A stretch of DNA of 64,000 bases, from the NCBI GenBank assembly GCA_016865015.1, contig CP018226.1, positions 2,077,001 through 2,141,000 on the forward strand. Direction: 5' to 3'. Shown here piece by piece: positions 43,366 to 61,172 of this stretch; the first letter of the stretch is position 1; every line of letters starts with the position of its first letter. The notes under the pieces were generated by a model, which saw nothing but the letters and a program-made list of their open reading frames with translations, searched no databases and had not been told where the DNA came from. Source of the stretch: Rhizobiales bacterium IMCC20636. Lineage in GTDB: Bacteria; Pseudomonadota; Alphaproteobacteria; Rhizobiales; GCA-2746425. A program made the position numbers and the translations under genes.

Positions 43366-44706
43366 ATGCGATCCCGTCATGTGTTTCCGCGCAATTGTGC
43401 GGCTGATTTGCCTGTTGCTGTTGGTGGTGACGGTGTTTACCTGATTGCGCAGGATGGAACGCGTGTCCTGGATGCCTGTGGCGGCGCAGCTGTGTCCTGC
43501 CTTGGTCATTCCAATGCAAGAGTGATCGCCGCTATCCAAAAGCAGGTGGCGAGCCTGGCTTACGCCCACACCAGCTTCTTCACGTCCGAGCCTGCCGAAG
43601 AGCTTGCAGAATTTTTGGCAGCGCGCGCACCTGGTGATTTGAACCGGGTCTATTTCGTATCAGGTGGCTCTGAGGCCATGGAAGCGGCCTTGAAACTGGC
43701 CCGGCAGTATCATGTCGAGGCAGGCAAACCGGAAAAGTCGCAGATTATCGGTCGCTGGCAGAGCTATCACGGCAATACGCTGGGTGCTTTGGCAACTGGC
43801 GGCAATCGCTGGCGACGTGCCCAGTTTGCGCCGCTTTTGAGCGACTCCATGCATCACATCGATCCCTGCTATGCCTATCGCGGCCAGTTGGAGGATGAAA
43901 CCGGGTTTGACTATGGTCAGCGGGTTGCCAATCAGCTGGAAGAAAAGATTTTGCAACTCGGTGCAGACACAGTTGCCGCCTTCGTGGCCGAGCCGGTTGT
44001 TGGTGCCACCATGGGCGCGGTTCCATCTGTGGATGGATATTTCAAACGCATTCGAAACATTTGCGACACATATGATGTGCTTCTGATTCTGGACGAAGTG
44101 ATGTGCGGCATGGGGCGCACCGGCCATCTGTTTGCCTGCAATCATGACAGCATCGAGCCAGACATGATTGCCATCGCCAAAGGCCTTGGTGCGGGCTACC
44201 AGCCAATCGGGGCGCTTATGGTGTCCGACCGCATTTTCGACACGCTGGCGGCCGGCACCGGCTTCTTCCAGCATGGTCATACCTATTTGGGCCACGCCAC
44301 TGCCTGTGCGGGCGCATTGGCTGTGATGCATGAGATCGAAGAGCAGAATTTGCTTCAGGCTGTGTGTCAGCGTGGCGAAGCGCTGAGGGCATCTTTAGCC
44401 GACCGGTTCGGGAACCATCCACATGTTGGTGATATCAGGGGCAGGGGCTTGTTTTTGGGGCTGGAACTGGTTGAGGACCGTGAGACAAAAGCGGCATTCG
44501 CCCCTTCGAAACGCATCAATTCTCGCCTCAAATCGGCCGCCATGAAAGCCGGGCTGATGTGTTATCCGATGGGAGGAACCATTGATGGACAGGCCGGAGA
44601 CCACATTCTGCTGGCACCGCCTTTCATCATTGACGACAGCCATGTAGCCGAGATCACCGACAAATTGTCGATTGCTCTTGATGAAACGCTCGCTGCGATA
44701 CGATAG
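43366..44706 (+). CDS. Class III (omega) aminotransferase, first copy
   Basis: This PLP enzyme of fold type I transfers an amino group from an amine or omega-amino acid to a keto acid. PLP would bind K272 in AIAKGLGAGYQPIG. VYFVSGGSEAMEAALKLARQ, SYHGNTLGALATGG and LDEVMCGMGRTG are the other motifs. At 446 residues it has the same length and domain plan as the second copy at 59.8-61.1 kb, including CGGAAVSCLGHSN. It is 34 bases after uspA and probably in the TRAP operon, which suggests that the imported compound is an amino compound. The substrate cannot be named. Confidence 0.92.
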   Translation: MRSRHVFPRNCAADLPVAVGGDGVYLIAQDGTRVLDACGGAAVSCLGHSNARVIAAIQKQVASLAYAHTSFFTSEPAEELAEFLAARAPGDLNRVYFVSGGSEAMEAALKLARQYHVEAGKPEKSQIIGRWQSYHGNTLGALATGGNRWRRAQFAPLLSDSMHHIDPCYAYRGQLEDETGFDYGQRVANQLEEKILQLGADTVAAFVAEPVVGATMGAVPSVDGYFKRIRNICDTYDVLLILDEVMCGMGRTGHLFACNHDSIEPDMIAIAKGLGAGYQPIGALMVSDRIFDTLAAGTGFFQHGHTYLGHATACAGALAVMHEIEEQNLLQAVCQRGEALRASLADRFGNHPHVGDIRGRGLFLGLELVEDRETKAAFAPSKRINSRLKSAAMKAGLMCYPMGGTIDGQAGDHILLAPPFIIDDSHVAEITDKLSIALDETLAAIR

Positions 44707-44776
44707 GCCTTGAAAAGCCAAGCCAGCGGTGCTAATTGCCCTGCAGCTTTGAAGCAAAGCTCAGACATATGTCTAC

Positions 44777-44850
44777 TGGGGAATAGGTTAACGGTAGACC
44801 TACGGACTCTGACTCCGTCAGTCCTGGTTCGAATCCAGGTTCCCCAGCCA
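44777..44850 (+). tRNA. tRNA-Gln, anticodon CUG (CAG codon)
   Basis: The 74-base gene has an encoded CCA. TGGGGAA and TTCCCCA form the acceptor stem. The anticodon stem ACGGA/TCCGT encloses loop CTCTGAC, anticodon CTG. GGTTCGAATCC is the T-arm. Its last 47 bases recur at 52831-52877, marking it as an integration target. Confidence 0.95.
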
Positions 44851-45086
44851 TTTTTTTCAAGCAGTTAGGTAACGGCTTTTAGCCATCGTCTTCGAATGGT
44901 TTGGAGTTTTGTATTGCGTTGGCGTCGGCACGCAAGGTGGTATCATCCGCTTTTGCAAGCATTCCGGGGGCTTTGTGGCATCATGCGGCCTGAAGAAAAA
45001 TGGCAACCGATTTGGTGTACAGTGGAAGCGACCAAGCTGTTGAGGTTGATGCATATTTGCATGCTCCGAGAGAAACTCGGCCTATG

Positions 45087-46226
45087 TCATGTGCGAGAAA
45101 TGGCCAGATCATCAATGGTGTGAGCGCCGAGAAATCCCATAGCGGTCCGCATTTCGTTCTGTATCATTTCCAGCAATTCTACAGCGCCATCCTCGCCGCC
45201 AGCCGCCAGCCCCCACAGTGGCAAGCGCCCGAGCATTGTTGCCTGGGCACCAAGCGCCAGATATTTCAAAATATCGGTTCCCCGACGCACGCCACTATCT
45301 GCGATCACGGTGATGTTGCTGCCAACGGCTTCTGAAATATTGACCAACCGATCGGCAGGTGCCGGAGCAATATCAAGATTTCTCCCGCCGTGCGAAGACA
45401 CAACAATCGCGTCGGCGCCAAATTCGCAACAGCGCAATGCATCTGCGACAGAAAGAACACCTTTCACTATGAGCTTGCCGCGCCATAAATCGCGCAGACG
45501 CGCGAGATCATCCCAATTCAGACTGGGATCCTGTTCAACCCGGGGGTCACTTGCGCCGCTGGTGATGGAGGTTCGGCAGTCTGGCGGATAGTGGGCAAAT
45601 TCCGGAAGCCTTCCAGAAGTCAGATAGCGCCCCAGAACTCCCAACATCCAACGCGGATGGCTCAAAACGTCAACCGAATTGCGAAGACCTGGAACGGTCG
45701 GCACTCCGAAGCGATTGCGCTGATTATATTCGCGATTCGGTGCCACCTGGTTGTCGACGGTAAAGACCAATGTCTCGCAGCCAGCATTCCAGGCACGAGA
45801 CAACAGTTCCTCCATCAATTTGCGGTCTTTCCAGAGATAAAGCTGAAACCAAAGTTCGGCATCTGGCGCGCCCTTCCGGATTCGTTCAATCGACGTGATC
45901 GAGAGCGTCGCCACACAGAATGGAACCTTCAATCGCGCAGCAGCACGTGCGAGCGCAACTTCTCCTTGGTATGAAACAAGACCTGCCAAAGCGGTCGGTG
46001 CAATGATGAGTGGTGACGCTGCGGATTTGTCGAACAACTGAGTGGCGAGCAAACAGTCTGCAGATCCATTCAGAATGGCAGGCTCAAGGCTGATCCGATC
46101 AAGGGACTTGCGGAGCTGCTGGAGGGCCACTTCATCTTCGGTGCCACGATCAATATATTCGAAGAGACCTCGCGGTAAAAACCGGCGCGCCTTCTCCCGA
46201 TAGTCATGCGAATTCAACAAGTCCAT
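45087..46226 (-). CDS. FMN-dependent 2-hydroxyacid dehydrogenase (L-lactate/mandelate dehydrogenase family)
   Basis: This flavoenzyme oxidises an L-2-hydroxyacid to the 2-keto acid, usually passing electrons to the quinone pool. The FMN-barrel features are YIDRGTEDE at 24-32, FQLYLWKDR, TVDNQVAPNREYNQRN, KGVLSVADAL, SSHGGRNLD with the catalytic His and Arg, and DSGVRRGTDILKYLALGA. Its 379 residues are the family length. It is the last gene of the minus-strand set, 110 bases after the GntR gene. Lactate is possible, but the variable region (about 175-225) gives no firm substrate. Confidence 0.92.
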   Translation of the reverse strand: MDLLNSHDYREKARRFLPRGLFEYIDRGTEDEVALQQLRKSLDRISLEPAILNGSADCLLATQLFDKSAASPLIIAPTALAGLVSYQGEVALARAAARLKVPFCVATLSITSIERIRKGAPDAELWFQLYLWKDRKLMEELLSRAWNAGCETLVFTVDNQVAPNREYNQRNRFGVPTVPGLRNSVDVLSHPRWMLGVLGRYLTSGRLPEFAHYPPDCRTSITSGASDPRVEQDPSLNWDDLARLRDLWRGKLIVKGVLSVADALRCCEFGADAIVVSSHGGRNLDIAPAPADRLVNISEAVGSNITVIADSGVRRGTDILKYLALGAQATMLGRLPLWGLAAGGEDGAVELLEMIQNEMRTAMGFLGAHTIDDLAISRT

Positions 46227-46336
46227 GCCATTTTCCCAATGGGGCCGGAATACCGAACTGTCAGCAAGTGATGAGCGATGCCAGCACTTACATTTCGATC
46301 ATAGAAGCTGGTTTGCGATTGAATGCCAAGCATCCA

Positions 46337-47002
46337 TTATACCCTCAAGGCCCGTCTCCTGGCGCTTTCCAGATGGGAAATTGAAGCCGCCAAAACGGCA
46401 TCGACATCTCGTTTTTCAAGAGCCTGAATAATTGCGAGATGCTCAGTCATCGCCGATACCATCAGTTCGGGGCGCAATCGGGTGTCTTCGTTTCGAATCA
46501 AACGGATCTTGATCGAATTCGTCCGATAGATCGCTGAGATCAGGTCGTTTCCCAGCGCATCTATGAATCGGTCGTGCATTTCCCAATCAATTTCCTGCGC
46601 CTTGGCCAACAGCTTCGGTGTGACACCACTTTGTGCGGTTGCGAGGATCTTTTCGTGAGACTTACGCAGCCGTGTGATTTCGGCATCAGTGGCGACGATG
46701 GTAAAGTGGCGTAGAGCTTCCTGATCCAGAACCATTCGGAGCTGAAACGCGTTTCTCACCAGGTTCAAATCAACACTCAGGACCCGCAAGCCGCGGTTGG
46801 GAACAGCTTCAATCAACCCATCCGCCTCCAACCTGGGAACCATTTCCCGGATTGCACCGAGGGGCATCCCGGTCAATTGCACCAGTTCTCGTTGCGACAC
46901 GATTTGCCCAGGGGAAATCGTCTGGGTGAGCAGATGTTCCGTAAAGGACTCATAGGCTTGATTGCGAAGCGGCGCTTCATTCGTGGGCTTATTTGGTGCC
47001 AT
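46337..47002 (-). CDS. GntR-family regulator with FCD ligand domain
   Basis: This is a 221-residue repressor-type protein. The N-terminal winged helix-turn-helix (about 15-75) contains GQIVSQRELVQLTGMPLGAIREMVPRLEADGLIEAVPNRG, quoted in part as GAIREMVPRLEADGLIE. The C-terminal all-helical FCD domain carries the usual metal-site Asp and His residues (WEMHDRFIDALGN, MTEHLAIIQAL). Start 47002 overlaps the stop of the upstream DapA-family gene by one base. It probably controls this cluster by binding the repeated TGACATGT sites at 47936-47960. Confidence 0.9.
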   Translation of the reverse strand: MAPNKPTNEAPLRNQAYESFTEHLLTQTISPGQIVSQRELVQLTGMPLGAIREMVPRLEADGLIEAVPNRGLRVLSVDLNLVRNAFQLRMVLDQEALRHFTIVATDAEITRLRKSHEKILATAQSGVTPKLLAKAQEIDWEMHDRFIDALGNDLISAIYRTNSIKIRLIRNEDTRLRPELMVSAMTEHLAIIQALEKRDVDAVLAASISHLESARRRALRV

Positions 47003-47910
47003 CAGTTTTGCAATGACATGACGAGGGGCGTAAGTTCTGAAACGATTACGGAATCTGCCGGAGACAAAGGTGGCCGTGTGCGGGCCCATTCCGGATCGTT
47101 GCGGCAAGACCCGACAAGCGCCTTTACAAGCGGTGTCACCGGAAATGAAACCAGGGCGTCGATAATGGAAACGAGTTCCTGAGAAGGTGTTCCGTTGTGG
47201 ATCATTTCCGCAATCACATCAGGAACGAGATTGGCCATGCCACAGATTGAGCCAGCACAACCCAGCGGAGCCGCTTTTGCAAGAAGTCGCTCATCCCCAA
47301 TCATGATGGCCAGATCGTCCATCGGCAGTATCTGACAAGCATGGTTCCAGTCGCCGGAGCTGTCTTTGATTCCGAAAATCGCGGTGCCACACGATGCCAC
47401 GATGTTGCGGATGGCTGCTACGTCGAAGCGTACGCCGGTCACTTGCGGTATGTGGTAGAGAATGAATTGAACGTCCAGGTCAGATACTTTTTCGACGAGG
47501 CTGGCGACCCAACGCTCTAGCGCTGCGTCATCGATACCCTTGAAGTAAAAGGGTGGCGCGAGGAGAAACCGGGATACGCCACGGCGGGCGGCCGTTCGCA
47601 CCATCGACTCGCAAGTTTCAATGTCACATGAAATGACAGAGACCGTCATGCGAGATGGCGACATGCCAGTGTCCAACACTGCATCGATTGCGGTTTCGCG
47701 TTCCTTCTGGCCGAGAGAAGCACCCTCACCAGTCGTTCCGAACAATGTCACTCCGTCAACCGCGCCTGAAATACTGTCCACGTGAGACTGCAAACGTTCC
47801 AGATCAATGGATCCGTTGGCTGTGAATGGTGTCACCAGGGCGGCGGATTGTCCAAAAAGATGGCCACGCGGTGAGGCAGTTTGGGGCAGTTCGGTTTGTG
47901 TAATTTGCAC
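47002..47910 (-). CDS. Dihydrodipicolinate synthase-family aldolase/lyase
   Basis: This is a 302-residue class I (Schiff-base) TIM-barrel enzyme. The lysine is in FGIKDSSGD, the tyrosine in ILYHIPQVTG, and the GTTGEG motif is intact. The core catalytic set is therefore complete, but the company it keeps (hydroxyacid dehydrogenases, TRAP transporter) argues for a catabolic aldolase or dehydratase on a 2-keto acid rather than lysine synthesis. It is the first gene of the minus-strand set and divergent from the FAD dehydrogenase gene. Confidence 0.9.
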   Translation of the reverse strand: MQITQTELPQTASPRGHLFGQSAALVTPFTANGSIDLERLQSHVDSISGAVDGVTLFGTTGEGASLGQKERETAIDAVLDTGMSPSRMTVSVISCDIETCESMVRTAARRGVSRFLLAPPFYFKGIDDAALERWVASLVEKVSDLDVQFILYHIPQVTGVRFDVAAIRNIVASCGTAIFGIKDSSGDWNHACQILPMDDLAIMIGDERLLAKAAPLGCAGSICGMANLVPDVIAEMIHNGTPSQELVSIIDALVSFPVTPLVKALVGSCRNDPEWARTRPPLSPADSVIVSELTPLVMSLQN

Positions 47911-47935
47911 GAGTTTTTTTCCAATCGATTCATAA

Positions 47936-47960
47936 CTGACATGTCAGAGTGTTGACATGT
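47936..47960. promoter_or_regulatory. Operator-like repeat pair in the divergent island promoter
   Basis: A perfect 12-base palindrome CTGACATGTCAG is at 47936-47947, and TTGACATGT repeats at 47952-47960, so the TGACATGT cores are 16 bases apart, on about the same face of the helix. The site lies between two divergent transcription units, one encoding a GntR regulator, which is the natural candidate to bind it. Confidence 0.6.
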
Positions 47961-48035
47961 GTATATCAATTGCTGCTTAGTGGTGCAAGTAGCCGGGTGG
48001 TTACTTAGCAAGCTTGACCTTGGGGAGGGATCGCA

Positions 48036-49430
48036 TTGGATAAAAAGATACAGGTCTTTTTCACAAATTTGCCGTCATCGGTGCTCGCTTGCCGTGTGGA
48101 TCCAGTGCCCGAACGCAACCTTATCGACTGGTCGTCCCTGGAGGGCGTCCGCCCGGCGGCGTTATTTTGTCCACGCAGCATTGCAGACGTATCGGCAATC
48201 ATGACTGCAGCCAACTTAGCGGGCGTGGCCGTGGTTCCACAGGGCGGACTGACCGGGCTATGCGGTGGAGCGCGTCCTCAGGCGAGTGGAATTGCACTTT
48301 CGCTGGAGAAGATGGTTGGAATTGAAGAAATCGATACAGATTCTGCCACCATGACTGTGTTGGCTGGGACGCCGCTCGAGACAATTCAGCACGCTGCCGC
48401 AGACGCTGACATGTTTTTTGCGCTTGATCTTGGCGCTCGCGGATCCTGTGTCATCGGCGGAAATGTAGGGACCAATGCTGGCGGAAACAGAGTCATCCGC
48501 TATGGCATGACTCGCGATTTGGTGCTGGGAATCGAGGCTGTCCTTCCTGATGGGACAATTATCAACGCGCTGTCGAAACTGATAAAGAACAATACCGGGT
48601 ATGATGTGCGTCAGCTTTTCATTGGTTCGGAAGGCACGCTTGGTATTGTTACCCGTGTGGTACTCCGCCTGCATCCAGCACCTACTTGCACACATGCTGC
48701 AGTTTTTGGACTGTCCGACTATGAATCTGTTCTGAAATTTCTCGCCGGCGCCAGGCGACAACTCGGGCCAATGCTCTCTGCGTTCGAGGCAATGTGGTCA
48801 GATTATCTGGAGATTGCACTGGCCGTACCGGGGGTAAGAAACCCGTTACAATCGCGGCATGCCTTCACAGTTCTTGTCGAGTCACAGGGCACCGATGAGA
48901 AAATCGACGGTGAACGGTTTATGGGATTCTGCGAAACAATGTTCGAGACAGGGGTGATTGAGGATGCGGCAGTGTCCCAGAGTCTGGCCGATGTGCAATC
49001 CTTCTGGGGGCTCCGCGATGCCTGCTCGGAATTCAAGACCACGGTTGGTCCCCATTTCGCTTTTGACATAGGCCTTCCGACCGGCAAAATTGATGAATTT
49101 GCCAGACTCTGCCGCACCCGCATTGCTGATGCGCTGCCCGGTGGGAAATCAGTCTATTACGGCCACATCGCCGATGGAAATCTGCATTTGCTGGGGTGGC
49201 AACCTGGCGGCACGACAGATGAAATCACCGGCCATCTCCTTGATGAGGCTGTCTACGAAACTGTACGCGATTTTGGTGGGTCTGTTTCGGCCGAGCATGG
49301 GATCGGCCTGACCAAAAAGCGCTACCTCGCTCATTCGCGCTCGCCAGAAGAACTTGAGCTGATGAAAACGATCAAGCGAGCGATCGATCCCAATAATATT
49401 CTCAATCCTGGCAAGGTGATTGACCTATGA
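48036..49430 (+). CDS. FAD-binding 2-hydroxyacid dehydrogenase (GlcD/D-lactate dehydrogenase type)
   Basis: This flavoprotein of the PCMH/VAO family most likely oxidises a D-2-hydroxyacid. The FAD domain has VVPQGGLTGLCGGARP, GGNVGTNAGGNRVIRYG and GSEGTLGIVTRVVLRLHP. The C-terminal domain has YYGHIADGNLHL, the metal-linked His motif, and SVSAEHGIGLTKKRYL, ending at NNILNPGKV. TTG 48036 is the start, with GGGAGGGA upstream. Its stop overlaps the dctQ start by 4 bases. With the FMN enzyme on the other arm, the island could oxidise both enantiomers of one hydroxyacid. Confidence 0.92.
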   Translation: MDKKIQVFFTNLPSSVLACRVDPVPERNLIDWSSLEGVRPAALFCPRSIADVSAIMTAANLAGVAVVPQGGLTGLCGGARPQASGIALSLEKMVGIEEIDTDSATMTVLAGTPLETIQHAAADADMFFALDLGARGSCVIGGNVGTNAGGNRVIRYGMTRDLVLGIEAVLPDGTIINALSKLIKNNTGYDVRQLFIGSEGTLGIVTRVVLRLHPAPTCTHAAVFGLSDYESVLKFLAGARRQLGPMLSAFEAMWSDYLEIALAVPGVRNPLQSRHAFTVLVESQGTDEKIDGERFMGFCETMFETGVIEDAAVSQSLADVQSFWGLRDACSEFKTTVGPHFAFDIGLPTGKIDEFARLCRTRIADALPGGKSVYYGHIADGNLHLLGWQPGGTTDEITGHLLDEAVYETVRDFGGSVSAEHGIGLTKKRYLAHSRSPEELELMKTIKRAIDPNNILNPGKVIDL

Positions 49431-49966
49431 TCATCTTGAGGTTCATCGAAGCCAATTTTGAACGCGTTCTACTGGCGGTGATCCTGTTCGCCCTTGTTGC
49501 TATTCTCGCAGCTCAGGTGGTGTTTCGTTACGTCATTGGCTCGCCACTTGTCTGGTCCGAGGAACTGGCACGCTATCTGCTGGTCTGGTGCACCTTCATC
49601 GGTGTCAGCCTGGCTGTTCGAGAAGGCCGACATATCTCGGTGGATATCCTGCCTGTTCTTGTGGGGCCACGCGGGGTGTGGTTTTTCGGCGTACTCGCCT
49701 TGCTGGGATCAGCTGTCTTCTTTGCGCTGACCGTCTGGTACGCAGTTCCCCTGACGATGCGGATCGCCAAGATTGGCCAAGCATCGCCAGGTCTTGGAAT
49801 TCCAATGTGGACTGTCTATGCCGCCGTTCCAGTGGGGCTGAGCCTTGCCTTGCTGCGTTGCGGTCAAGTCTTGTGGAAGATCAGCCGAGGGGCTCCGTTG
49901 CCTGGTGCTGATGAGATCCTGGACAAAGCCGCCACGCTGACCAGCAAAGAGGCAGCTGCAAAATGA
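49427..49966 (+). CDS. TRAP transporter small permease subunit (DctQ family)
   Basis: This is a 179-residue membrane protein with four hydrophobic segments. Segment 2 is followed by the family pattern VWSEELARYLLVWCTFIGVSLAVREGRHI. That pattern, quoted here in two parts, is EELARYLLVWCTFIG and SLAVREGRHI. It overlaps the dehydrogenase gene upstream and the dctM gene downstream by 4 bases each, so all three are coupled. It stabilises the large subunit. Confidence 0.94.
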   Translation: MIILRFIEANFERVLLAVILFALVAILAAQVVFRYVIGSPLVWSEELARYLLVWCTFIGVSLAVREGRHISVDILPVLVGPRGVWFFGVLALLGSAVFFALTVWYAVPLTMRIAKIGQASPGLGIPMWTVYAAVPVGLSLALLRCGQVLWKISRGAPLPGADEILDKAATLTSKEAAAK

Positions 49967-51243
49967 TGGTTCCCTTCTACGCCCTCCTGTTCTTCCTCAT
50001 GCTTTTGTTTCTAAGCATACCAGTCGCATTCTCACTGGGGTTTGCAGCATTCCTTCCCGGTTGGGTCGGTGCGCCGACAAATGCAGGGCAGGTCATCCGG
50101 TCGATTGTCACCGCGCTCGACAGTTTTCCTCTTCTTGCGGTTCCGCTCTTTATTCTCGCGGGCGAAATCATGACGCAAGGCGGGCTCGCCAAGCGGTTGT
50201 TTTTGCTGGCAGATGCAGTGTTCGGCAGATTCCATGGTGGCCTTGCCATGTCATCAGTGGCGGCATGCATGCTGTTTGGTGCCATTTCGGGGAGCTCCCC
50301 AGCAACTGTTGCCGCAATCGGCACTATGGCTGTGCCACTTCTTACGGCGCGGGGGTATGATCTCAGATTTTCAACCGCATTAATTGCGGCAGCCGGGACT
50401 CTCGGTGTCATTGTTCCTCCCTCCATTCCAATGATCATTTATGGCATGGCTGCACAGGTCAGCGTCTCAGCGCTCTTCATCGGCGGTATTCTTCCTGCAA
50501 TGGTCATCGGGACCCTGTTGATGCTTTATGCAAACGCATATGGTCGACGGAACACTCACCGCATTAGTTCCGATGCTGGTAATGTTGATGTGGCGGCCGT
50601 TTTCCGACAGGCAATCTGGGCACTCCTCGCGCCGGTTTTCGTTCTCGGAGGAATTTATTCGGGCGCATTCACCCCCACCGAGGCTGCAGCCGTTGCCTGC
50701 GTCTACGGAGCTTTCGTGGCGATCGTGATCTTCCGAGAATTGTCCATTATGGACATGGGAAAAGTATTCACCAATACTGCGCTCACCATTGCGCCGATCC
50801 TCATCATTGCCGGGACAGGTGCCGCATTGGGGCGTGTTTTGACCATATTGCAGGTTCCTGCCGCTATCGGCGAATTTGTCGGAGGCACCATCGACGAGAG
50901 ACTGACCCTGCTCCTGCTGATAAATGTGGTTCTTCTGGGCGTTGGGATGGTGATGGAGACCTTGTCGGCGATTATCGTCCTGACGCCAATTTTCCTGCCC
51001 CTTATTGCCCCATACGGAGTTGATCCGGTGCATTTTGGCATGATCATGGTGGTCAACCTGGCCATCGGCTTCGTGACGCCGCCTGTTGGGGTGAATATTT
51101 ACGTCGCAAGCGGCATCACCAAACTCCCCGTACTTCAGATTTGCCGAGGACTCATTGTGCCCCTCATGCTTCTGATCCTCGGACTTCTCGTGATCACTTA
51201 TTGGCCCGGCCTTACGCTTTGGCTGCCTGGGCTTGCTCGGTAG
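49963..51243 (+). CDS. TRAP transporter large permease subunit (DctM family)
   Basis: This is the transport channel, 426 residues and about 12 membrane segments. FILAGEIMTQGGLAKRLF, FGAISGSSPATVAAIGTM, GTLGVIVPPSIPMIIYG, GAFTPTEAAAVACVYG and AIGFVTPPVGVNIYVASGI are the standard DctM motifs. It couples ligand import to an ion gradient. The start overlaps dctQ by 4 bases; dctP follows after 37 bases. Confidence 0.96.
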   Translation: MMVPFYALLFFLMLLFLSIPVAFSLGFAAFLPGWVGAPTNAGQVIRSIVTALDSFPLLAVPLFILAGEIMTQGGLAKRLFLLADAVFGRFHGGLAMSSVAACMLFGAISGSSPATVAAIGTMAVPLLTARGYDLRFSTALIAAAGTLGVIVPPSIPMIIYGMAAQVSVSALFIGGILPAMVIGTLLMLYANAYGRRNTHRISSDAGNVDVAAVFRQAIWALLAPVFVLGGIYSGAFTPTEAAAVACVYGAFVAIVIFRELSIMDMGKVFTNTALTIAPILIIAGTGAALGRVLTILQVPAAIGEFVGGTIDERLTLLLLINVVLLGVGMVMETLSAIIVLTPIFLPLIAPYGVDPVHFGMIMVVNLAIGFVTPPVGVNIYVASGITKLPVLQICRGLIVPLMLLILGLLVITYWPGLTLWLPGLAR

Positions 51244-51280
51244 AACGACCATACCAACCAACCTAAAAGGAAGAGAGAAA

Positions 51281-52297
51281 ATGAAAATGAAATTCAAGAC
51301 AATCGCCTTGAGTGCCCTGATGGCAAGCAGCATGGCGTTTCAGGCAAATGCTGCGGATTATACGATGATTCTCGCGCATACATTGAACGATAAAGCTCAT
51401 CCGCTCTATCAGGCATTCTCAATGATCGAGACAGAAATCGAAGCCAACAGCAATGGACGCATCGACGTTCAGCACCAACCTGGCGCCGCCCTTGGGGGGG
51501 ACCGTGAATTGATGGAATCCCTGATGCTGGGCGACATCCAATTCGTTCCGGTCTCCACTTCGGGTGCCGTGCAATTCGTACCGGAATTCGCAGTTTTCGA
51601 AATTCCTTACGTGTTTCCTTCAGATACAAAACAGTTGCGGGCCGTTCTGAACGATTCTGAATACACCAAGGCACTTGAAGACACTTTGGCAAGCAAAGGT
51701 CTCACATTCGGAAAGTTCTACAATGGCGGGTTCCGTCAGTTGACAACATCGAGCGTTCCAGTGCGCACGCCGGATGATATCTCTTCAAACAATCTGCGCA
51801 TCCGCGTCATTGAAAATCCTTATCCCGTTGCCATCTGGAAAGCCATCGGCGCAGCGCCAACACCAATTGCATTCCCGGAACTCTACGGAGCCCTGCAGCA
51901 GGGTGTTGTCGACGGGCAGGAAAACCCGTTTGGACATATTCTCTCGCAACGTTTCTACGAAGTTCAGTCCTACCTTTCCACGACAAGCCACATCCTGCTG
52001 GCCAACGTCAATCTGATCAACAAGGAATGGTATGACAGCTTGCCTGATGATCTGCAGACGGTTGTGGATGATGCACTGGCATCTGCTGAAGAATTTCAGT
52101 GGAACTTGCAAGACAGCATGGCTGCCGAGCAGCGCGCTCAGATCGAAGAGCACATGGAAATCATCGATCTGACTGCCGAAGAAATCGCTCTTTTCCAGGA
52201 AAAAACCGTTCCGATTCAGGCCATGGTGCGCGAAAATATCGGTGACGAAATGGTGGATTCACTGTTGAGCGCAATCAAATCGAAGACCGGTTCCTGA
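51281..52297 (+). CDS. TRAP transporter substrate-binding protein (DctP family)
   Basis: This is the periplasmic receptor of the island TRAP system, 338 residues. A signal peptide at 1-21 ends FQANAADY. GRIDVQHQPGAALGGDRELMES and RIRVIENPYPVAIWKAIGA carry the carboxylate-clamping arginine expected in DctP receptors; GALQQGVVDGQENPFGHI is the signature segment. The ligand should be a carboxylate, fitting the two hydroxyacid dehydrogenases encoded alongside. The ATG has AAAGGAAGAG upstream and is chosen over an earlier in-frame start inside dctM. A hairpin follows 33 bases after the stop. Confidence 0.95.
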   Translation: MKMKFKTIALSALMASSMAFQANAADYTMILAHTLNDKAHPLYQAFSMIETEIEANSNGRIDVQHQPGAALGGDRELMESLMLGDIQFVPVSTSGAVQFVPEFAVFEIPYVFPSDTKQLRAVLNDSEYTKALEDTLASKGLTFGKFYNGGFRQLTTSSVPVRTPDDISSNNLRIRVIENPYPVAIWKAIGAAPTPIAFPELYGALQQGVVDGQENPFGHILSQRFYEVQSYLSTTSHILLANVNLINKEWYDSLPDDLQTVVDDALASAEEFQWNLQDSMAAEQRAQIEEHMEIIDLTAEEIALFQEKTVPIQAMVRENIGDEMVDSLLSAIKSKTGS

Positions 52298-52329
52298 TCC
52301 TCATTTAATCTTGATCTATTGAACAATTG

Positions 52330-52361
52330 TCGCCACCGTCCTTGAATCAGGCCGGTGGCGA
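52330..52361 (+). terminator. Terminator-like hairpin after dctP
   Basis: TCGCCACCG and CGGTGGCGA pair over 9 bases with a 14-base loop and are followed by TTGCATTTG. It ends the island's plus-strand operon. Confidence 0.6.
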
Positions 52362-52830
52362 TTGCATTTGTTCAGCCTGTATTTTGGCCAGCAAATCAAG
52401 CTCTTATCAAACGTGAGACGGTCTCGAATTCAGGACAGGAATATATGCTCCTCCGCACAAGATTCCACCGAATACCTTTGACACCTGTTTGTGATCTTCC
52501 AATAGGTTGTCCCTTCGGTCTGGATCGATGAGATTAGAGGCACCAGATTTCAATGCTTCTTGGATGGATCGGATGGGTAACCATATGAATGCAGTTATGT
52601 TTCCCTTGCCACGAGCCGATATGGCGCAGTTCATGCTTGCGACCGGGAGTTCAAATTATCATTGGGCGCTATCGTTTTGACCATTTCCAAATATGGGGCA
52701 AATCTAGTCCAATCAGGCGTCGGAAACACAGGCCGCATCGGTTTGGAAACTACCAGTAAGGGATTCAACTTTAGTGATCTGTCTTGTGATCAGTTTGGAA
52801 CCAAGTAATTGAAATTGTTGAACTTCTGAA
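52362..52830. other. Gene-poor end of the island
   Basis: There is no recognisable coding sequence between the dctP terminator and the tRNA-Gln copy. A minus-strand frame at 52407-52634 (75 codons) has no ribosome site or family likeness. This is one of the two places where a lost integrase could have been. Confidence 0.45.
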
Positions 52831-52877
52831 GGACTCTGACTCCGTCAGTCCTGGTTTGAATCCAAGTTCCCCAACCA
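52831..52877 (+). repeat. Degenerate copy of the tRNA-Gln 3' end (putative attachment site)
   Basis: Forty-seven bases match 44804-44850 with three differences, all C-to-T or G-to-A changes. The copy starts inside the anticodon arm and runs through the CCA, the usual span of an integrase-made duplication at a tRNA. It is not a functional tRNA: the 5' half is missing. The flanks after it are unrelated apart from a short TTTTTCAA. Confidence 0.85.
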
Positions 52878-53131
52878 TAAATTTTTCAATGACTTATATA
52901 GCATGACCAGCGCGGTACAGAGCGACTATGGGTTCGCTGGGTTGAATATCCATGTCAGCGGTCCTCTTTTCGGGTCGGACGTCATGCTTTTTGTTGTGCA
53001 AACTATGATGGCGGAACCATTCGGCTAAGAGACCGGATGGATTCAATAGCGGTCAAAATTTGCATGATTATTCCACTTGGTGGGCCAGGGAACGGAACGC
53101 ACCGCCGGCCGCAACCGCGGACCTCAAAAGG

Positions 53132-53332
53132 CTAGAATGCCGGGCCTGGTTTGGCGCCAAGCCATTTGAAAGCGATCGCTGCCGGGCAAAATCCGGTGAA
53201 GGCAGACTGGATCTGGTTGACGCCGACGAAAACTGTAAGCCAGACGAAATGGGGCGAGACCCAATAGGTCAGCACCAGTGACAAAAGCACCATGAAGCCT
53301 GCGAAGGCCATTACAATACGACCAAGTGACAT
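53132..53332 (-). CDS. Small membrane protein, DUF2892 (YgaP-like)
   Basis: This protein of 66 residues has two hydrophobic segments (about 5-25 and 29-50). The ending FVGVNQIQSAFTGFCPAAIAFKWLG is diagnostic, quoted in part as NQIQSAFTGFCP. DUF2892 proteins often accompany sulfide-oxidising and rhodanese genes. ATG 53332 has AAAGGA upstream; the longer form from 53347 does not. It lies 77 bases after sqr on the same strand, so probably in one operon. The 253 bases before it (52878-53131) hold no recognisable gene. Confidence 0.82.
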   Translation of the reverse strand: MSLGRIVMAFAGFMVLLSLVLTYWVSPHFVWLTVFVGVNQIQSAFTGFCPAAIAFKWLGAKPGPAF

Positions 53333-53409
53333 GTGTTTTCCTTTCATGCGATCACGTGTGGGTAACGGGCATTGTGGTTCGTCTCGTCGTCCGGAAGAGT
53401 GCTGCGCAC

Positions 53410-54702
53410 TCAGTCCTTCGTATCGAGTTTGACCTGTTTCAGCTTCTCAATTCCCAGAGCCTGCATCGCGAGCCGTTCATAGAAGGGTTCGGATTTTCCG
53501 CTGCGGATCTTGTGCAGGAAGTATTTCTCAAAAGCGATCTTGGCCAGATGCACCCATTTTCCAGAGGATGACCAGTTCACATTGCGCGGCGGAATTTGCG
53601 GCTGGGCCACAAAGGCGATGCCGCTGTCGCCGAAATCCGCAAGGCAAACGGCGTTCCAGGTGGCGATCGCATCCGGGGCCAGTCCCTTGGTCAGCCGATC
53701 TATGTTGTGCACGGTTGCCGTGACCATGGACTCGATCATGAATCCGGTTTTTGGAACGCCCACCGGCACTGGCGTTTTGCCCACTGGCGGGATCGCGACG
53801 CAGACGCCGACGGAAAACACTTCCCGATAGGCAGGATTGCGCTGGTATTTGTCGGCCAGAACAAAGCCGCGGGGATTGGTCAGTCCTTCTAGGCCCTGCA
53901 GCGCTTCGATGCCGCGAAAGGCGGGTAACATCATGGTGAAGACCTGTGGCACTTCATGTTCTTTCAGAACCGAGCCATCCTCGGCCATTTCCGAAACCAT
54001 AATTTTGTCTTTTTCCACCTTGTCCAGCCGGGCGTTGCAAATCCACTTGATGTGGTGCTGCCGCATTTCGCCTTCCAAGAGCCCTTTGGTGTCGCCGACA
54101 CCGTCCAGTCCCAGATGTCCGACATAGGGTTCTGATGTGATAAAGGTCATCGGGACCTGATCGCGCACTTTCGCATCCCGCAACGCCTTGTCGAGAATGA
54201 AGGCGAATTCGTAAGCCGGTCCAAAGCAGGAGGCACCCTGTACCGCTCCAATCACCACAGGGCCGGGATTTGCGATCAACGCGTCCACTGCCAGTTTCGC
54301 CTGCAGCGCGTGATCGACATGACAGATTGACTGGGTATGAGCGCCGGGGCCAAAGCCTTCAATCTCGTCAAAGGCAAGCTCGGGGCCGGTGGCGATCACC
54401 AGATAATCATAGCTGACCGATTCGCCGTCATTCAATTCGATGCGGCGTTCAGCCGGGTGCACCCGCTTGGCACCCTGCGGGTGCAATGCAATGTCGTTTT
54501 TGGCAAAGACGGTTTCCAGATCAACCTCAATGGATTCTCTGTCGCGCCATCCCACGCCAACCCACGGATTTGACGGCACGAAATGGAAACGGTTGCCCAA
54601 TGTGACGACCGAGACCGAATGATCCGCTCCAAGCGTCTCACGCAATTCATAGGCGGCGATTGTGCCGCCAAGTCCTGCGCCGAGGACCACAATATGTGCC
54701 AT
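53410..54702 (-). CDS. sqr: Sulfide:quinone oxidoreductase
   Basis: This membrane-associated FAD enzyme oxidises sulfide to sulfane sulfur and feeds electrons to quinone. The FAD-binding GAGLGG is at 8-13. The three redox cysteines are at C127 (SICHVD), C159 (GASCFGPAYE) and C353 (WNAVCLADFGD), matching the spacing of characterised SQRs. PSNPWVGVGW and PKTGFMIESMVTATVHNI are other family segments, and the amphipathic C-terminus (WVHLAKIAFEKYF) fits membrane binding. The 430-residue length is normal. ATG 54702 has AAGGAG 7 bases upstream. It is upstream of the DUF2892 gene. Confidence 0.94.
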   Translation of the reverse strand: MAHIVVLGAGLGGTIAAYELRETLGADHSVSVVTLGNRFHFVPSNPWVGVGWRDRESIEVDLETVFAKNDIALHPQGAKRVHPAERRIELNDGESVSYDYLVIATGPELAFDEIEGFGPGAHTQSICHVDHALQAKLAVDALIANPGPVVIGAVQGASCFGPAYEFAFILDKALRDAKVRDQVPMTFITSEPYVGHLGLDGVGDTKGLLEGEMRQHHIKWICNARLDKVEKDKIMVSEMAEDGSVLKEHEVPQVFTMMLPAFRGIEALQGLEGLTNPRGFVLADKYQRNPAYREVFSVGVCVAIPPVGKTPVPVGVPKTGFMIESMVTATVHNIDRLTKGLAPDAIATWNAVCLADFGDSGIAFVAQPQIPPRNVNWSSSGKWVHLAKIAFEKYFLHKIRSGKSEPFYERLAMQALGIEKLKQVKLDTKD

Positions 54703-54905
54703 CTCTATCTCCTTCAAAATGCCGGACCGGGATCATCCGAACCCGACTCGTAACGCCGCACCAATGCAGCAGGTTGAGAAGAAATTACCAAATTCAGCAA
54801 GAGAGTCGTTGATGTGGATCAATATCGTTTATGAGCATTTGAACGTTGTATAGTCCCTATAGCTGCAAACGGGCGCGCACTTGTGGGCTAAACCAGTTTG
54901 CGCCG

Positions 54906-55583
54906 TCAATGCTCGAGTTCCATCAGGATCGGGCGGTGATCTGAGGGCCCCCGCTTCAGGGATTTTCCGCTTACCTTCCGCAAGTCACGAGCCAGGCATC
55001 TGTCGAGGCGAAAAGGGACGATTCTTTGGGCATGATGTGTTGATCCGCGCGGTCCAATATCGCGGAAACCGGGCAGAACAATCGGGCCGACAGCATTGAA
55101 ATCACCGATTATGGCGGTCGGGCCATCCGTTGAGTGTGCAATCGTTCGAAGTTGGCGACGATTCAGAAACTGCCCGTGCGACAAGTGAACATTCGCAATT
55201 GTCACGCCATCAACCTCAAGAATTTGGGAGAAGCGGGTAGGCACGCGCCCTGGCATTTTTGATGCGGGTAACTTCAACGCGCGCGATTCCCAAAGCGTTG
55301 TCGAGCCCCATACTGCAAGACCATGACGCTTTCCTGGCCATGATTGGGCATGGTATTTTCCCCCGACCAGAGAGGGTAGCATACTGATTTCCTCGGTCAC
55401 TTCCTGCATCAGAAAAAGATCGGGTCGCTCATCCTCGATGATCCCTGCAATGTCCTGAACAAGCGCTCCTGATCGATGCAAGAGGTTCCAGCTGATCACC
55501 TTGAGAAGCTGTCGAGGGGGCGTGTCGCTATCAGTCTTATCGGTCTGGTGCATTGCAACAGTATCTTTGGGTGAACTCTGCAT
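54906..55583 (-). CDS. Endonuclease/exonuclease/phosphatase-family protein
   Basis: This metal-dependent phosphodiesterase-fold protein has about 225 residues. VISWNLLHRSG, DLFLMQEVTEE with the metal Glu, VHLSHGQFLNRRQL, GDFNAVGP and PSDHRPI are the EEP motifs in order. The natural substrate may be a nucleic acid or a phospholipid headgroup. The second ATG (55583) lies 6 bases after AGGA and is preferred to 55589. It begins 11 bases after the stop of the cardiolipin synthase-like gene, a pairing seen in many bacteria, which points to membrane lipid work. Confidence 0.88.
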   Translation of the reverse strand: MQSSPKDTVAMHQTDKTDSDTPPRQLLKVISWNLLHRSGALVQDIAGIIEDERPDLFLMQEVTEEISMLPSLVGGKYHAQSWPGKRHGLAVWGSTTLWESRALKLPASKMPGRVPTRFSQILEVDGVTIANVHLSHGQFLNRRQLRTIAHSTDGPTAIIGDFNAVGPIVLPGFRDIGPRGSTHHAQRIVPFRLDRCLARDLRKVSGKSLKRGPSDHRPILMELEH

Positions 55584-55594
55584 CGGCATTCCTG

Positions 55595-57004
55595 TTAAAT
55601 ATATGGAAGAAGCAATCGTGCTCCGGCGTCTCGCAACCTTTGTGTCACCGGGCGCTGAATAATGTCATTTGGCGTCAGGCGCGTGGACCGGGCGATTTTC
55701 TCGTCAATAAGAGCATCAATTCTGGACACGACATTTTCACCGTATAACTCCAGCATGAACTCGAAGTTCAGTCTGAGGCTTCGCACATCCCAATTGGGAC
55801 TGCCAATTGCGCTCCATTTTCCGTCAACCGTCATGAGCTTTGAGTGGTCAAATGGCGCCGAAGTTGTAAAACACTTCACTCTTTCCAAATGAAAATGCGC
55901 AAGATGCGCCCGCATGGCCCAATCCATTGCGATGTGGTCGGATGCCTTGGGGATCAGCAATTCAAGCTCTACTCCGCGCAGACCTGCCAGATTGACAGCC
56001 GCACTCAGCTTCTCGTCGGGCAGAAAATATGGGGTTACGATCCGCACCTTGTGCCTCGCTTGCAGGATCGCTGCAACAAGCACAGTCTCTATTTTTCCGA
56101 TATCCTCATCCGGCCCGGAACTGACTCCCCGGGCGACAACCGACCCTGAAGGCTGTATGTCCGGCCACCAGATATCGTTGCTGAGCATTTCGCCAGTGGT
56201 GAAATGCCAGTCTGCAACGAAACTTTCCATCATCTGCGCGACAACGGGGCCTTCAACATAAAAATGTGTGTCATCGACACATTTTTTTTGGTTCCCGGAC
56301 GCCGTATTTTCAGCTCCAATATTCAGGCCGCCGGTAAAGCTTTTCGCTCCATCAATGATCAGGAGTTTCTTGTGATTTCTAAGATTTACAAATGGCATCC
56401 GCCACGGACGCGTGTCATGAATGAATCGCGCAGCCTCTATGCCTGCATTTTTCAGAGACCGCATGATCGGTGATGAAAAATATCCACCGCCGATGCCATC
56501 AACAAGAACTCTTATTTGTACGCCCCGGTTTTGTGCCTCTACCAAAGCTTCAACAAATTTCGTCCCGACGCTGTCCAATCGGAAGATGTAGGTGGCAAGC
56601 GCGATGCTGGAATTTGCCGACGCTATTGCCGATAACATTTCCGGATAGGCTTCAGTTCCACTGCACATCACTTCAATCCGATTGCCGTGGGTGAGTGGAA
56701 GGCCGGTAATCTTGTTCCCGACGCCTGCCAGCGTATTCATGCTGTCGCCCAACTGCAATATACGGGTTTGTGCTGCAATCGGAGCGTTTCTAGTCCGGAT
56801 CTGGTCTCGTTTAATGTGAGACGCCCGGCGCGCAACACGATTGATCCCGAATGCAGCGTAGAATGCGGCCCCAAGAAACGGTGAAAACCAGATCAGGCCG
56901 ATCCAGCCAATTGCGGATCTCACGTCACTTTTTCGCAGCAGAATATGACTGGTCGCAGTTCCCGCGACCAGAATATGAGCGATTGATGCTAACCAATAAA
57001 GCAT
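55595..57004 (-). CDS. Cardiolipin synthase-like phospholipase D protein
   Basis: This is a 469-residue membrane enzyme that would join two phosphatidylglycerols into cardiolipin. Two N-terminal membrane segments (about 1-20 and 30-55) precede two PLD domains with intact HKD motifs, HKKLLIIDG and HSKLMTVDG. GSPNWDVRSLRLNFEFML and the closing TRLTPNDIIQRP are typical of Cls. The start codon ATG at 57004 has AAGG about 10 bases upstream. It is cotranscribed with the EEP-family gene. Confidence 0.93.
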   Translation of the reverse strand: MLYWLASIAHILVAGTATSHILLRKSDVRSAIGWIGLIWFSPFLGAAFYAAFGINRVARRASHIKRDQIRTRNAPIAAQTRILQLGDSMNTLAGVGNKITGLPLTHGNRIEVMCSGTEAYPEMLSAIASANSSIALATYIFRLDSVGTKFVEALVEAQNRGVQIRVLVDGIGGGYFSSPIMRSLKNAGIEAARFIHDTRPWRMPFVNLRNHKKLLIIDGAKSFTGGLNIGAENTASGNQKKCVDDTHFYVEGPVVAQMMESFVADWHFTTGEMLSNDIWWPDIQPSGSVVARGVSSGPDEDIGKIETVLVAAILQARHKVRIVTPYFLPDEKLSAAVNLAGLRGVELELLIPKASDHIAMDWAMRAHLAHFHLERVKCFTTSAPFDHSKLMTVDGKWSAIGSPNWDVRSLRLNFEFMLELYGENVVSRIDALIDEKIARSTRLTPNDIIQRPVTQRLRDAGARLLLPYI

Positions 57005-57069
57005 GCCAGTGAACCTTCTTTGACCCGGTAATTCACCGAGAGTATATCCGCATCAAAGAGGCCACTCCA

Positions 57070-57465
57070 TCATTCCGTCGTGCGACCGTCAAAATGCTCG
57101 TGGGCTGAACCCGCATCCGAACTTGTCGCGTGGATCGTACCGTCAACATGTTCTGGTGGGCCATAGATGGTATATAGTTTCAGGGGACCAGATCCAGTGT
57201 TGATAACATTATGCTTCGCGCCTGCGGGCACTATGATGCCATCATCGGCCTTCACTTTGTTTGCAACGCCATCAATCCATACGTCGCCAGTACCAACTTC
57301 AATGCGAAAGAATTGATCACGGTCCTCATGGACTTCTTCGCCGATTTCGTCGCCAGGTACCAACGCCATCAAAACCAGTTGAAGATTCTTGCCGGTATAG
57401 AGGACCTGACGGAAATTATCGTTATCCTCTGTCAGCTTCTCGATATTATCTACAAAACCCTTCAT
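57070..57465 (-). CDS. Cupin-domain protein
   Basis: This is a 131-residue single cupin. The first motif (GDEIGEEVHEDRDQFFRIEVG) is quoted in part as EEVHEDRDQFFRIEVG; the second is PAGAKHNVINTG. The metal-binding positions are partly altered (HED in place of HxH), but Glu and the second-motif His are present. Relatives are metal-binding isomerases, oxygenases or sugar-binding proteins; no function can be assigned. The ribosome site AAGGA lies 9 bases before the ATG. Confidence 0.82.
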   Translation of the reverse strand: MKGFVDNIEKLTEDNDNFRQVLYTGKNLQLVLMALVPGDEIGEEVHEDRDQFFRIEVGTGDVWIDGVANKVKADDGIIVPAGAKHNVINTGSGPLKLYTIYGPPEHVDGTIHATSSDAGSAHEHFDGRTTE

Positions 57466-58093
57466 CGTATTTGTCCTTGTCTGTGTTGGTGTCCCGGGCT
57501 TCGCACCTGGATCACATTGTTTTGTCTTTTTTCAATCGTCTTGTTCTGAAACTGCATTTTCGACTGAACGGACGAAGTCTGGTCAATTTAACCAGAGCGG
57601 ACCGGCGCAGCTTCACGCCACTTATATCAAAGCTGCGCACAGAGCAGGTTGATCGAAGTCAACTAGCGGGAGGGCGGCACCCTATTTGATGGGTGTGCCG
57701 TCAGCAGGGTCTTGTTGTCGTAATGTGGATCGACAATGCCGAAATGCATAGCAGAGTAAGTTTCGCGGCGTCTTTTCCAGTGTGTGTCATCTATTATCTG
57801 AGATGAGACGCGCGAATGCATCGCGTTCAGAAAAATGGAGTGGCTGTTCATCCTGACAAAAGCGTGAGCAAGGAAGCAGGCGCGCATGGGCGTTCATAGT
57901 TGGAGGATCTCTGGAGAAATTCGCTCAGTTGTTACCTCTTAAACGAGTCGTGAAACTGGTTCGCAAGTGCCTATGTTGAAAGGTAAAACGTCGGTTCCGG
58001 GCAGTGGCTGCATGAGACAAATTCCATTGTCATTCATTTGTTTTGCAGGTAAAACACTAGAAGCTGCTGACAAGATGGGTATTCGAACCACAG
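57466..58093. other. Gap without a clear gene, containing an inverted repeat
   Basis: Short frames on both strands (57663-57887, 57967-58161) show no family likeness or ribosome site. GCGCAGCTT (57605-57613) and AAGCTGCGC (57630-57638) form a 9-base inverted repeat with a 16-base loop, possibly an operator. The region should contain the promoters of the cupin and IclR genes. Confidence 0.4.
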
Positions 58094-58885
58094 ATGACCG
58101 AGTCTTCCAATCACAAAGTGTATTTCGTGCCGGGCCTTCATCGCGGGTTGCGCGTGCTTGAGATCCTTGGGGCTGCGGACAAGCCCATGTCGATCAGCGA
58201 TATCGGGCGCGCCATGAGCCTCAGTCGTTCATCGACGTTTCGTCTCATCTATACGCTGAACCAGATGGGTTTTCTGAAAGACGGTATTCAGAACAACACC
58301 TACACGCTCGGCGCGCGCGTGCTCAATCTCGGCTTTGCCTATCTCAATCAACAACCGATCACGAGCATCGCCCGGTCTTACCTGTCCGAGTTGCGCGATA
58401 AGACTGGCGTCAGCGCGCATCTGAGTGTTCTGGAGGGCTACGATGTGCTTTATCTGGGCAGCCACCAGGCACGTACGGGATATGTCTCCAACATGGTCAC
58501 CGGTACGCGCACGCAGGCCTATGCATCGGCCGTCGGCTGGTGCCTTCTGGTGTCCTCCAGCGATGATGAATTGCAGGCGCTGTGCGACACCACCGATATG
58601 GTCCGCTTCACCGAACACACACCGACTGATTACGAGACTTTGCGCCAGCGTGTTCAATCCGCGCGCGATCAGGGGTACATTTTTTCAAAGGGGTTTCAGG
58701 AGCCCGGAGGCTCAAGCGTTGCCGTTCCGGTTCGTGACAGTTCTGGGGAGGTCGTGGCCTGCGTCAATATTTCAGGGCCTGACAGCGGCTTTGACTTTGA
58801 CAAGATTGACAGCTTCTACGTTCCGGAAACAAGAGCTGCCGCGCTTCAGATCTCGCGCGAATTGGGATATGGCGGACCAGCTTGA
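58094..58885 (+). CDS. IclR-family transcriptional regulator
   Basis: This is a 263-residue regulator. The N-terminal winged helix-turn-helix lies at about 15-75 (RGLRVLEIL, SISDIGRAMSLSRSSTFRLI), followed by the IclR ligand-binding domain (LGARVLNLGFAYLNQ, and later YIFSKGFQEPGGSSVAVPVRD). IclR proteins generally control adjacent catabolic genes in response to a small carboxylate. It converges on the BKACE gene with 5 bases between stops, and is the only regulator gene in the 58-64 kb cluster. The start lacks a strong ribosome site. Confidence 0.93.
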   Translation: MTESSNHKVYFVPGLHRGLRVLEILGAADKPMSISDIGRAMSLSRSSTFRLIYTLNQMGFLKDGIQNNTYTLGARVLNLGFAYLNQQPITSIARSYLSELRDKTGVSAHLSVLEGYDVLYLGSHQARTGYVSNMVTGTRTQAYASAVGWCLLVSSSDDELQALCDTTDMVRFTEHTPTDYETLRQRVQSARDQGYIFSKGFQEPGGSSVAVPVRDSSGEVVACVNISGPDSGFDFDKIDSFYVPETRAAALQISRELGYGGPA

Positions 58886-58890
58886 AACGA

Positions 58891-61109: not shown

Positions 61110-61119
61110 GCGATTTCCG

Positions 61120-61172
61120 TATTGCATCTGGAACACTGTTTTGTATATTAGACACAATCATGGAATGCAATA
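61120..61172. promoter_or_regulatory. Spaced inverted repeat in the divergent promoter
   Basis: TATTGCAT (61120-61127) and ATGCAATA (61165-61172) are perfect inverted copies 37 bases apart in the 100-base region between the aminotransferase and CoA-transferase genes. They could be paired sites for the IclR protein or another regulator. TGTATATTA between them may serve as a -10. Confidence 0.35.

Follow-up and report, generated by a model that had tools for sequence, protein, structure and literature searches.

What does the worn half of a transfer RNA (tRNA) gene, lying 8.0 kb downstream of the intact gene, tell us about the genes enclosed between the two? The question is raised by a 64,000-nucleotide (nt) stretch of the Rhizobiales bacterium IMCC20636 chromosome (GenBank CP018226.1, positions 2,077,001 to 2,141,000), here called the window, in which a tRNA gene for glutamine is followed by seven metabolic and transport genes and then by a copy of its own 3' half. 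We consider it probable that these 8 kb are an integrase-less islet bounded by attachment (att) sites, comparable to the cis-mobilizable elements (CIMEs) of other bacteria and bearing the footprint of a tyrosine recombinase at a tRNA-Gln hotspot of the genus. The islet is probably one layer of a stack. This assessment was made by comparing sequences, and the parts of the locus on which it depends are as follows (window positions).

44777..44850, plus strand: intact tRNA-Gln(CTG) found with ARAGORN; left-side synteny with four of four congeners reaches here, and it would be the integration target.
44804..44850, plus strand: att core at the tRNA-proximal end (attL-like), tRNA nt 28-74; in alignments the start falls at nt 26-28 in 9 of 11 tRNA-Gln/copy pairs.
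44851..44912, plus strand: putative element-type P' arm, with TCAAGCAGTTAGG from 44857 and GGTTTGGAGTTTTG at 44898-44911.
52831..52877, plus strand: displaced, decayed 3' half of tRNA-Gln (attR-like), with three transitions.
52878..52896, plus strand: second element-type arm, TAAATTTTTCAATGACTTA, past the displaced copy.
52878..58022: second variable layer, with a flavin adenine dinucleotide (FAD) oxidoreductase, an EEP protein and a cardiolipin synthase-like protein (assigned by family) and a cupin-like protein (by eye).

A first-pass annotation of this DNA had stated that the 3' 47 bases of tRNA-Gln recur at 52831-52877 in the same orientation with 44 matches, and both a direct match count and a repeat search confirmed it. 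Nucleotides 28-74 of the tRNA agree with the copy at 44 of 47 positions on the same strand, the three differences are all transitions, and the repeat search recovered the same pair, one base longer. The runner-up 47-mer on either strand of the window had 27 matches only. In the whole 4.79-Mb chromosome a single strong partial copy of tRNA-Gln was detected (E 1.4e-15), the next match having an E value of 0.004. The copy had also been described as spanning the anticodon arm to the CCA; it does extend to the CCA end, but it begins at nt 28, by hand count the stem's third pair, and not at the start of the arm. A third tRNA fragment was sought at 58023 and 80292, and none was convincing.

To learn how the boundary of this copy compares with others, the order was surveyed for tRNA-Gln matches, which were present in 265 of 297 genomes, and 60 genomes were hand-picked from those with at least two. 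Ten of the 60, the window's own included, carry a 3'-half copy no more than 60 kb from the tRNA and on its contig, a fraction that is not a prevalence because of the hand-picking. These genomes (G000, which is the window's, G004, G048, G096, G105, G149, G202, G207 with two copies, G212 and G219) hold 11 copies, 1.3 to 54.6 kb from the tRNA, all of them 3' of tRNA-Gln and on its strand. Nine copies start at nt 26-28 (nt 28 in the window), the others at nt 31 (G202) and nt 36 (G004). Outside the window, 8 of 10 copies show no difference from the tRNA of their own locus between nt 31 (or an earlier position) and the CCA; for six of them this holds from nt 27/28. Changes are seen in G212 (one base missing), G004 (several) and the window (three). 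The count leaves out G065 and G247, where copy and tRNA are on different contigs, matches starting past nt 36, and matches from about nt 27 with 77-85% identity that lie far off or on another contig (G014, G048:C5, G055, G067, G084, G087, G147, G207:C28, G224, G256, G157, G265); the last group was tentatively taken for another tRNA gene.

The copies of this kind are mostly accompanied by integrases. An open reading frame (ORF) for a tyrosine integrase lies within 80 bp of the copy in 7 of the 11 units, and all seven score above the PF00589 cut-off. The G096 unit has two recombinase-like ORFs in its interior, not at its ends, and no integrase ORF was found in the G004 unit or in that of the window. 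As a yardstick, recombinase ORFs at E 0.01 were found at 4 of 40 tRNA-Gln loci (L167, L176, L190, L198) fetched with 6 kb downstream, G212 and G096 included. Units in G048, G105, G149, G202, G207 and G219 share with the window islet the target, a near-identical core boundary and the orientation, but unlike the islet they retain their integrase. The tyrosine-recombinase footprint proposed for the window is therefore backed by a boundary, an orientation and a side that recur in the order, with a Phage_integrase gene in 7 of 11 units. Further instances come from a viral collection, in which 16 stretches carry the tRNA-Gln core: in five of them (L059, L060, L064, L067, L069) a close relative of the G048 integrase lies within 62 nt of an intact tRNA-Gln, and L065 and L068 contain partial copies starting at nt 26-28, the integrase ORF being 0.5 kb off in the former and 57 nt off in the latter. 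Matches to the 47-mer in a phage collection (248 records) were not used as evidence; among the 30 matches listed, nine are annotated as tRNA-Gln and 21 lie in featureless sequence. Prophages at tRNA-Gln are on record for Rhodobacteraceae (PMC8224337).

Three of these loci deserve separate mention. In G212 (L167) a unit of 1.3 kb runs from tRNA-Gln to a 3'-half copy and contains a truncated integrase ORF of 169 amino acids about 70 nt from the tRNA, an apparent decay intermediate. In G207 (L202) two tyrosine-integrase units stand in tandem at one tRNA-Gln. The copies lie 11.8 and 45.6 kb downstream, each unit has a copy and an integrase to itself, and together they form an accretion array. At G146:C1:944220-979672 one strand carries two full-length tRNA-Gln matches at a distance of 35 kb, and a short 3' fragment lies in between.

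A different enzyme was considered as the maker of the footprint, since in the congener G003 a large serine recombinase ORF (L043:14966-16597) abuts tRNA-Gln (L043:16479-16552) and reads antisense right through it, and since a serine recombinase is described with tandem islands at the transfer-messenger RNA (tmRNA) gene of Dehalococcoides (PMC3146451). We regard such an origin as highly improbable: there is no 3'-half copy within 30 kb past the G003 tRNA-Gln, and tyrosine integrases stand at the copy in 7 of 11 units, most loci having been searched with tyrosine models only. Beyond the G003 recombinase lie genes for ArdC, a C5 methyltransferase, a phosphoribosyltransferase (PRTase), an ORC-CDC6-like ATPase and a CARF protein.

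The sequence that follows the CCA provides a second line of evidence. A stretch like TTTTCAATGACTTA (its clearest form) is present past the CCA in both window copies and both G004 copies, and flank similarity in the four window-G004 pairs and in the G004 pair was better than in all 300 shuffles. Pairs with G001 or G002 did not exceed shuffles, and G003 versus G004 was intermediate (11/300). The motif TCAANNACTTA, chosen after such flanks had been seen, is present in the first 40 nt past the tRNA, with one mismatch or none, at 7 of 40 tRNA-Gln loci, versus 5 of 3941 background segments. The window has it with one mismatch at the intact tRNA and with none at the displaced copy, and the sole exact match of the short motif in the window is at 52886. 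The arm recurs in G004, together with GGTTTGGAGACGGTTTGGAGTTTTG, downstream of a tRNA-Lys that adjoins a tyrosine integrase. A combined pattern, TCAANNACTTAG..GGTTTGGAG, was built from two G004 tRNA flanks, one of them beside a tyrosine integrase. Allowing one mismatch, it has a single occurrence on the two strands of the window (44857-44906, 7 nt past the tRNA), and the G004 tRNA-Gln is its only site in 343 kb of fetched loci; the exact form is found nowhere in 397 genomes beyond the two G004 sites. The flank of the intact tRNA resembles the G004 tRNA-Lys arm to a degree reached by 3 of 5000 shuffles, and the flank of the displaced copy resembles that of the G004 tRNA-Gln (0/300 shuffles). 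The G001-G003 flanks do not match the tRNA-Lys arm (326-647 of 5000). The arm that follows the window tRNA thus resembles the one at a tRNA-Lys site with an integrase, which again agrees with the footprint as first described. Judging from its position, we read the arm as the P' arm to which the integrase of a lost element may have bound. The second arm, past the displaced copy, suggests by the accretion model that an older element lies underneath, although this depends on few bases. The arm pattern also gave 16 matches in viral contigs; no tRNA adjoined any of them and hidden Markov models (HMMs) placed no integrase near them, and they were taken as chance.

These observations also bear on the idea that the partial copy arose by segmental duplication or some other event not involving an integrase, the arm motifs being no more than the usual 3' context of the tRNA. 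The arm motif does occur at tRNA-Gln loci without a nearby integrase, such as L168, and no integrase or remnant was found near the islet. But the boundary, strand and side match those of the other copies, most of which have an integrase, and the motif is found at 7 of 40 loci against 5 of 3941 background segments and also beside an integrase at another tRNA. We therefore think a duplication very unlikely.

How far does the variable DNA extend? The surroundings were compared with the four other genomes of the genus (G001-G004). DNA left of the tRNA is kept in all four, at 82% identity in G001 and G002 (4.4 kb), 78% in G003 (3.0 kb) and, piecewise, 67-77% in G004. In each of them the homology to the window ends at the end of the tRNA, or about 60 nt later in G004. 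The islet itself gave only short matches to them (up to 171 nt) and no ortholog of its seven genes. The stretch 52878-58022 has no DNA match in the four congeners, and from 58023 on the window matches a different place in G003; we propose that 52878..58022 is the remnant of an older element. Shared backbone resumes 0.9 kb after the tRNA in G002, 7.9 kb after it in G001 and 35.4 kb after it in the window's chromosome, where it lies beyond the window in the same orientation (2157292-2166636). In all three the homology sets in at one point, where a short-chain dehydrogenase gene (named by eye) has its 3' end; the variable region is thus bounded on the left by tRNA-Gln and on the right by a border common to the three genomes. 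The backbone of G001 and G002 has no match in G003 and short matches only in G004. The fill in G001 is a 7.9-kb metabolic cassette of sulfatases and a tripartite tricarboxylate-type transporter (named by eye). In G004 a gap of 1.65 kb past tRNA-Gln is followed by another tRNA-Gln 3' fragment; an orthologous right flank between the window and G004, by way of the cardiolipin synthase-like gene, was rejected at only 26% identity. Past the window (L259, G000:C1:2140001-2160000) the variable region continues with genes of catabolic and transport appearance (by eye) until 2157292. The first-pass annotation had taken the 8 kb between the copies as the element. What does not fit is that variable sequence continues past the second copy, so the 8 kb are best seen as one layer of a stack.

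Several results weigh against reading this layer as a former element. Relatives without the seven genes had been expected to show tRNA-Gln followed directly by sequence like that from 52878 onward, and bar the short arm in G004 this junction was found in none of the four congeners, nor was a clean empty site. No att copy was found where the 35-kb region ends. The G001 cassette occupies the same place with neither tRNA copy nor arm, so genes may enter this locus without such a footprint. As to the arms, the two window flanks resemble each other at chance level (46 of 300 shuffles as good), the short motif at one mismatch turns up often in the window (13 times, against 7.2 expected), the exact arm pattern has no match in the window's genome, and the displaced-copy flank shares just 13 nt with the G004 tRNA-Lys arm (23/5000). 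An HMM search for an integrase relic in 44777-81000 gave nothing at E 0.1. The guanine-plus-cytosine content and tetranucleotide usage of the islet are ordinary and lend no compositional support to a foreign origin.

Other searches for the missing enzyme gave the same picture. Family HMMs found no tyrosine integrase between the copies, the four PF00589 matches of the genome each lying more than 1.3 Mb from the islet. In a tblastn search of 44000-59000 for integrase relics, the only matches with E below 0.03 were two that read the tRNA and the copy antisense. The first-pass description of a fixed or trimmed element fits an islet that would have lost its integrase.

We hypothesize the following history. 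An element with a tyrosine integrase would have integrated site-specifically at the anticodon-stem/loop part of tRNA-Gln(CTG), at a site where an earlier element, represented by 52878-58022, was probably already present through accretion. The attP of the incoming element would have brought a tRNA 3' half, leaving the gene whole, so that the 3' half of the intact tRNA-Gln would be element-derived and the original one would have been pushed to 52831-52877. No longer needed, this displaced half could have drifted by three transitions. The integrase gene, which abuts a copy in related units, would later have been lost; what is left would be the displaced half, the P' arm past the tRNA and, between them, a divergent catabolic regulon comprising seven genes. 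Read this way, the islet is a relic of a known kind, well preserved here.

Comparable systems have been described. The islands catalogued by Islander (2014) likewise consist of an intact tRNA gene with a same-strand 3' fragment downstream, the window falling into their anticodon-centred class (PMC4383910), and the 8.0-kb spacing lies within the 2-200 kb that Islander allows for a downstream fragment in the same orientation. Islander also demands an integrase ORF inside the interval; HMM searches found none, and its filter would reject the islet. Tyrosine integrases are given in that paper as the only kind known at tRNA genes. The CIMEs of Streptococcus, derived from integrative and conjugative or integrative and mobilizable elements (ICEs, IMEs), are reported to measure 1.2-13 kb with cargo and to be often stacked (PMC5704250, PMC7563491). 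The islet resembles them, as described there, in its small size, its att sites at both ends (here recognised by sequence, from the shared core boundary and the arm), its likely position in a stack at the 3' end of a target gene, and its lack of integration and transfer genes, the seven being enzymes, transport proteins and a regulator. It differs in having no known ICE or IME parent and in lying at a tRNA-Gln of another phylum. The ssrA islands of Dehalococcoides, 15 of 31 of which are reported to lack an integration module and were suggested to be CIMEs, likewise stand in tandem at a single RNA gene and carry metabolic cargo, and are unlike the islet in their serine recombinase, tmRNA target and respiratory cargo (PMC3146451).

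The interval between the copies contains these features.

45087..46226, minus strand: flavin mononucleotide (FMN)-dependent alpha-hydroxy-acid dehydrogenase (LldD-like, FMN_dh; PF01070; under the cut-offs of the NCBIfam models matched).
46337..47002, minus strand: GntR/FCD transcriptional regulator, start uncertain (PF07729, PF00392).
47002..47910, minus strand: DHDPS-family aldolase/dehydratase (PF00701).
47911..48035, no strand: putative divergent promoter/operator region, with a TGACATGTCA palindrome at 47937-47946 seen by eye.
48036..49430, plus strand: FAD-linked oxidase, GlcD-like (PF01565, PF02913).
49427..49966, plus strand: TRAP transporter DctQ (PF04290).
49963..51243, plus strand: TRAP transporter DctM (PF06808).
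51281..52297, plus strand: TRAP transporter DctP (PF03480; TIGR00787 above cut-off; an earlier TTG start at 51233 is possible).

Family annotation recognised seven genes here and HMMs found no integrase, in agreement with the earlier statement on both. The genes form two divergent groups, the DHDPS-family, GntR and FMN dehydrogenase genes leftward and the FAD-linked oxidase and TRAP transporter genes rightward. Their families indicate that they would likely serve to take up and oxidize a hydroxy or sugar acid, with aldol cleavage as the next step. A composite operator was sought in 47911..48035, and an inverted-repeat search with a 12-nt minimum gave none. No conjugation or relaxase families were assigned to the seven proteins, and Pfam and NCBIfam showed no phage structural or replication genes among them, as a prophage remnant would have.

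The genes from GntR through DHDPS, FAD oxidase and DctQ to DctM and DctP have an identical order, at 51-84% protein identity, in three Rhodobacterales loci (Roseivivax sediminis, an uncultured Rhodobacteraceae and Roseinatronobacter). These were the only 3 of 80 fetched loci with all six genes; three more have the last four, including Salipiger and a Thalassospira contig cut at its end. No tRNAs were found in the Rhodobacterales-type loci L070-L074. A search of the order at E 1e-60 gave matches to the six-gene stretch in 3 of 396 other genomes, all to DctM-DctP only.

The seven genes are likely the cargo of the element. They could alternatively have come by homologous or illegitimate recombination into an element already gutted, the att copies being real and the genes never cargo. 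The G001 cassette without an att copy would fit such a late entry, as would a 78-nt dispersed stretch in the islet tail (52490-52567) and the finding that an lldD-like gene does not accompany the conserved six-gene cluster in L070-L074 (E 1e-10). A late entry requires an extra event, and the cluster fills the interval, beginning 0.24 kb past the tRNA and stopping 0.53 kb short of the copy with no further recognised gene; we consider it unlikely. The 78-nt stretch recurs with 82% identity at G000:C1:160643-160720, directly behind a transporter ORF, and in shorter form at 2913806.

More tentatively, the tRNA-Gln of the genus might be a metabolic slot, where catabolic regulons are repeatedly delivered or stacked, stripped of their integrase. 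The core and P' arm that are kept would leave such islets mobilizable in cis or in trans by a related integrase, for example that at the congener tRNA-Lys with its matching arm. We see this as possible rather than probable. A literature search found no description of a tRNA-Gln hotspot in this genus, a weak negative with most subscription papers outside its reach. Integrase-less islands escape tools that demand an integrase, yet they may carry adaptive metabolism, and a worn tRNA half with a residual integrase-type arm points to such a relic. The truncated integrase of G212 and the tandem of G207 allow one to propose, on genome data alone, how an active island may turn into a fixed metabolic islet. 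The islet is also flanked by two paralogous aminotransferase genes (named by eye), at 43366-44706 and 59769-61157, with about 65% DNA identity.

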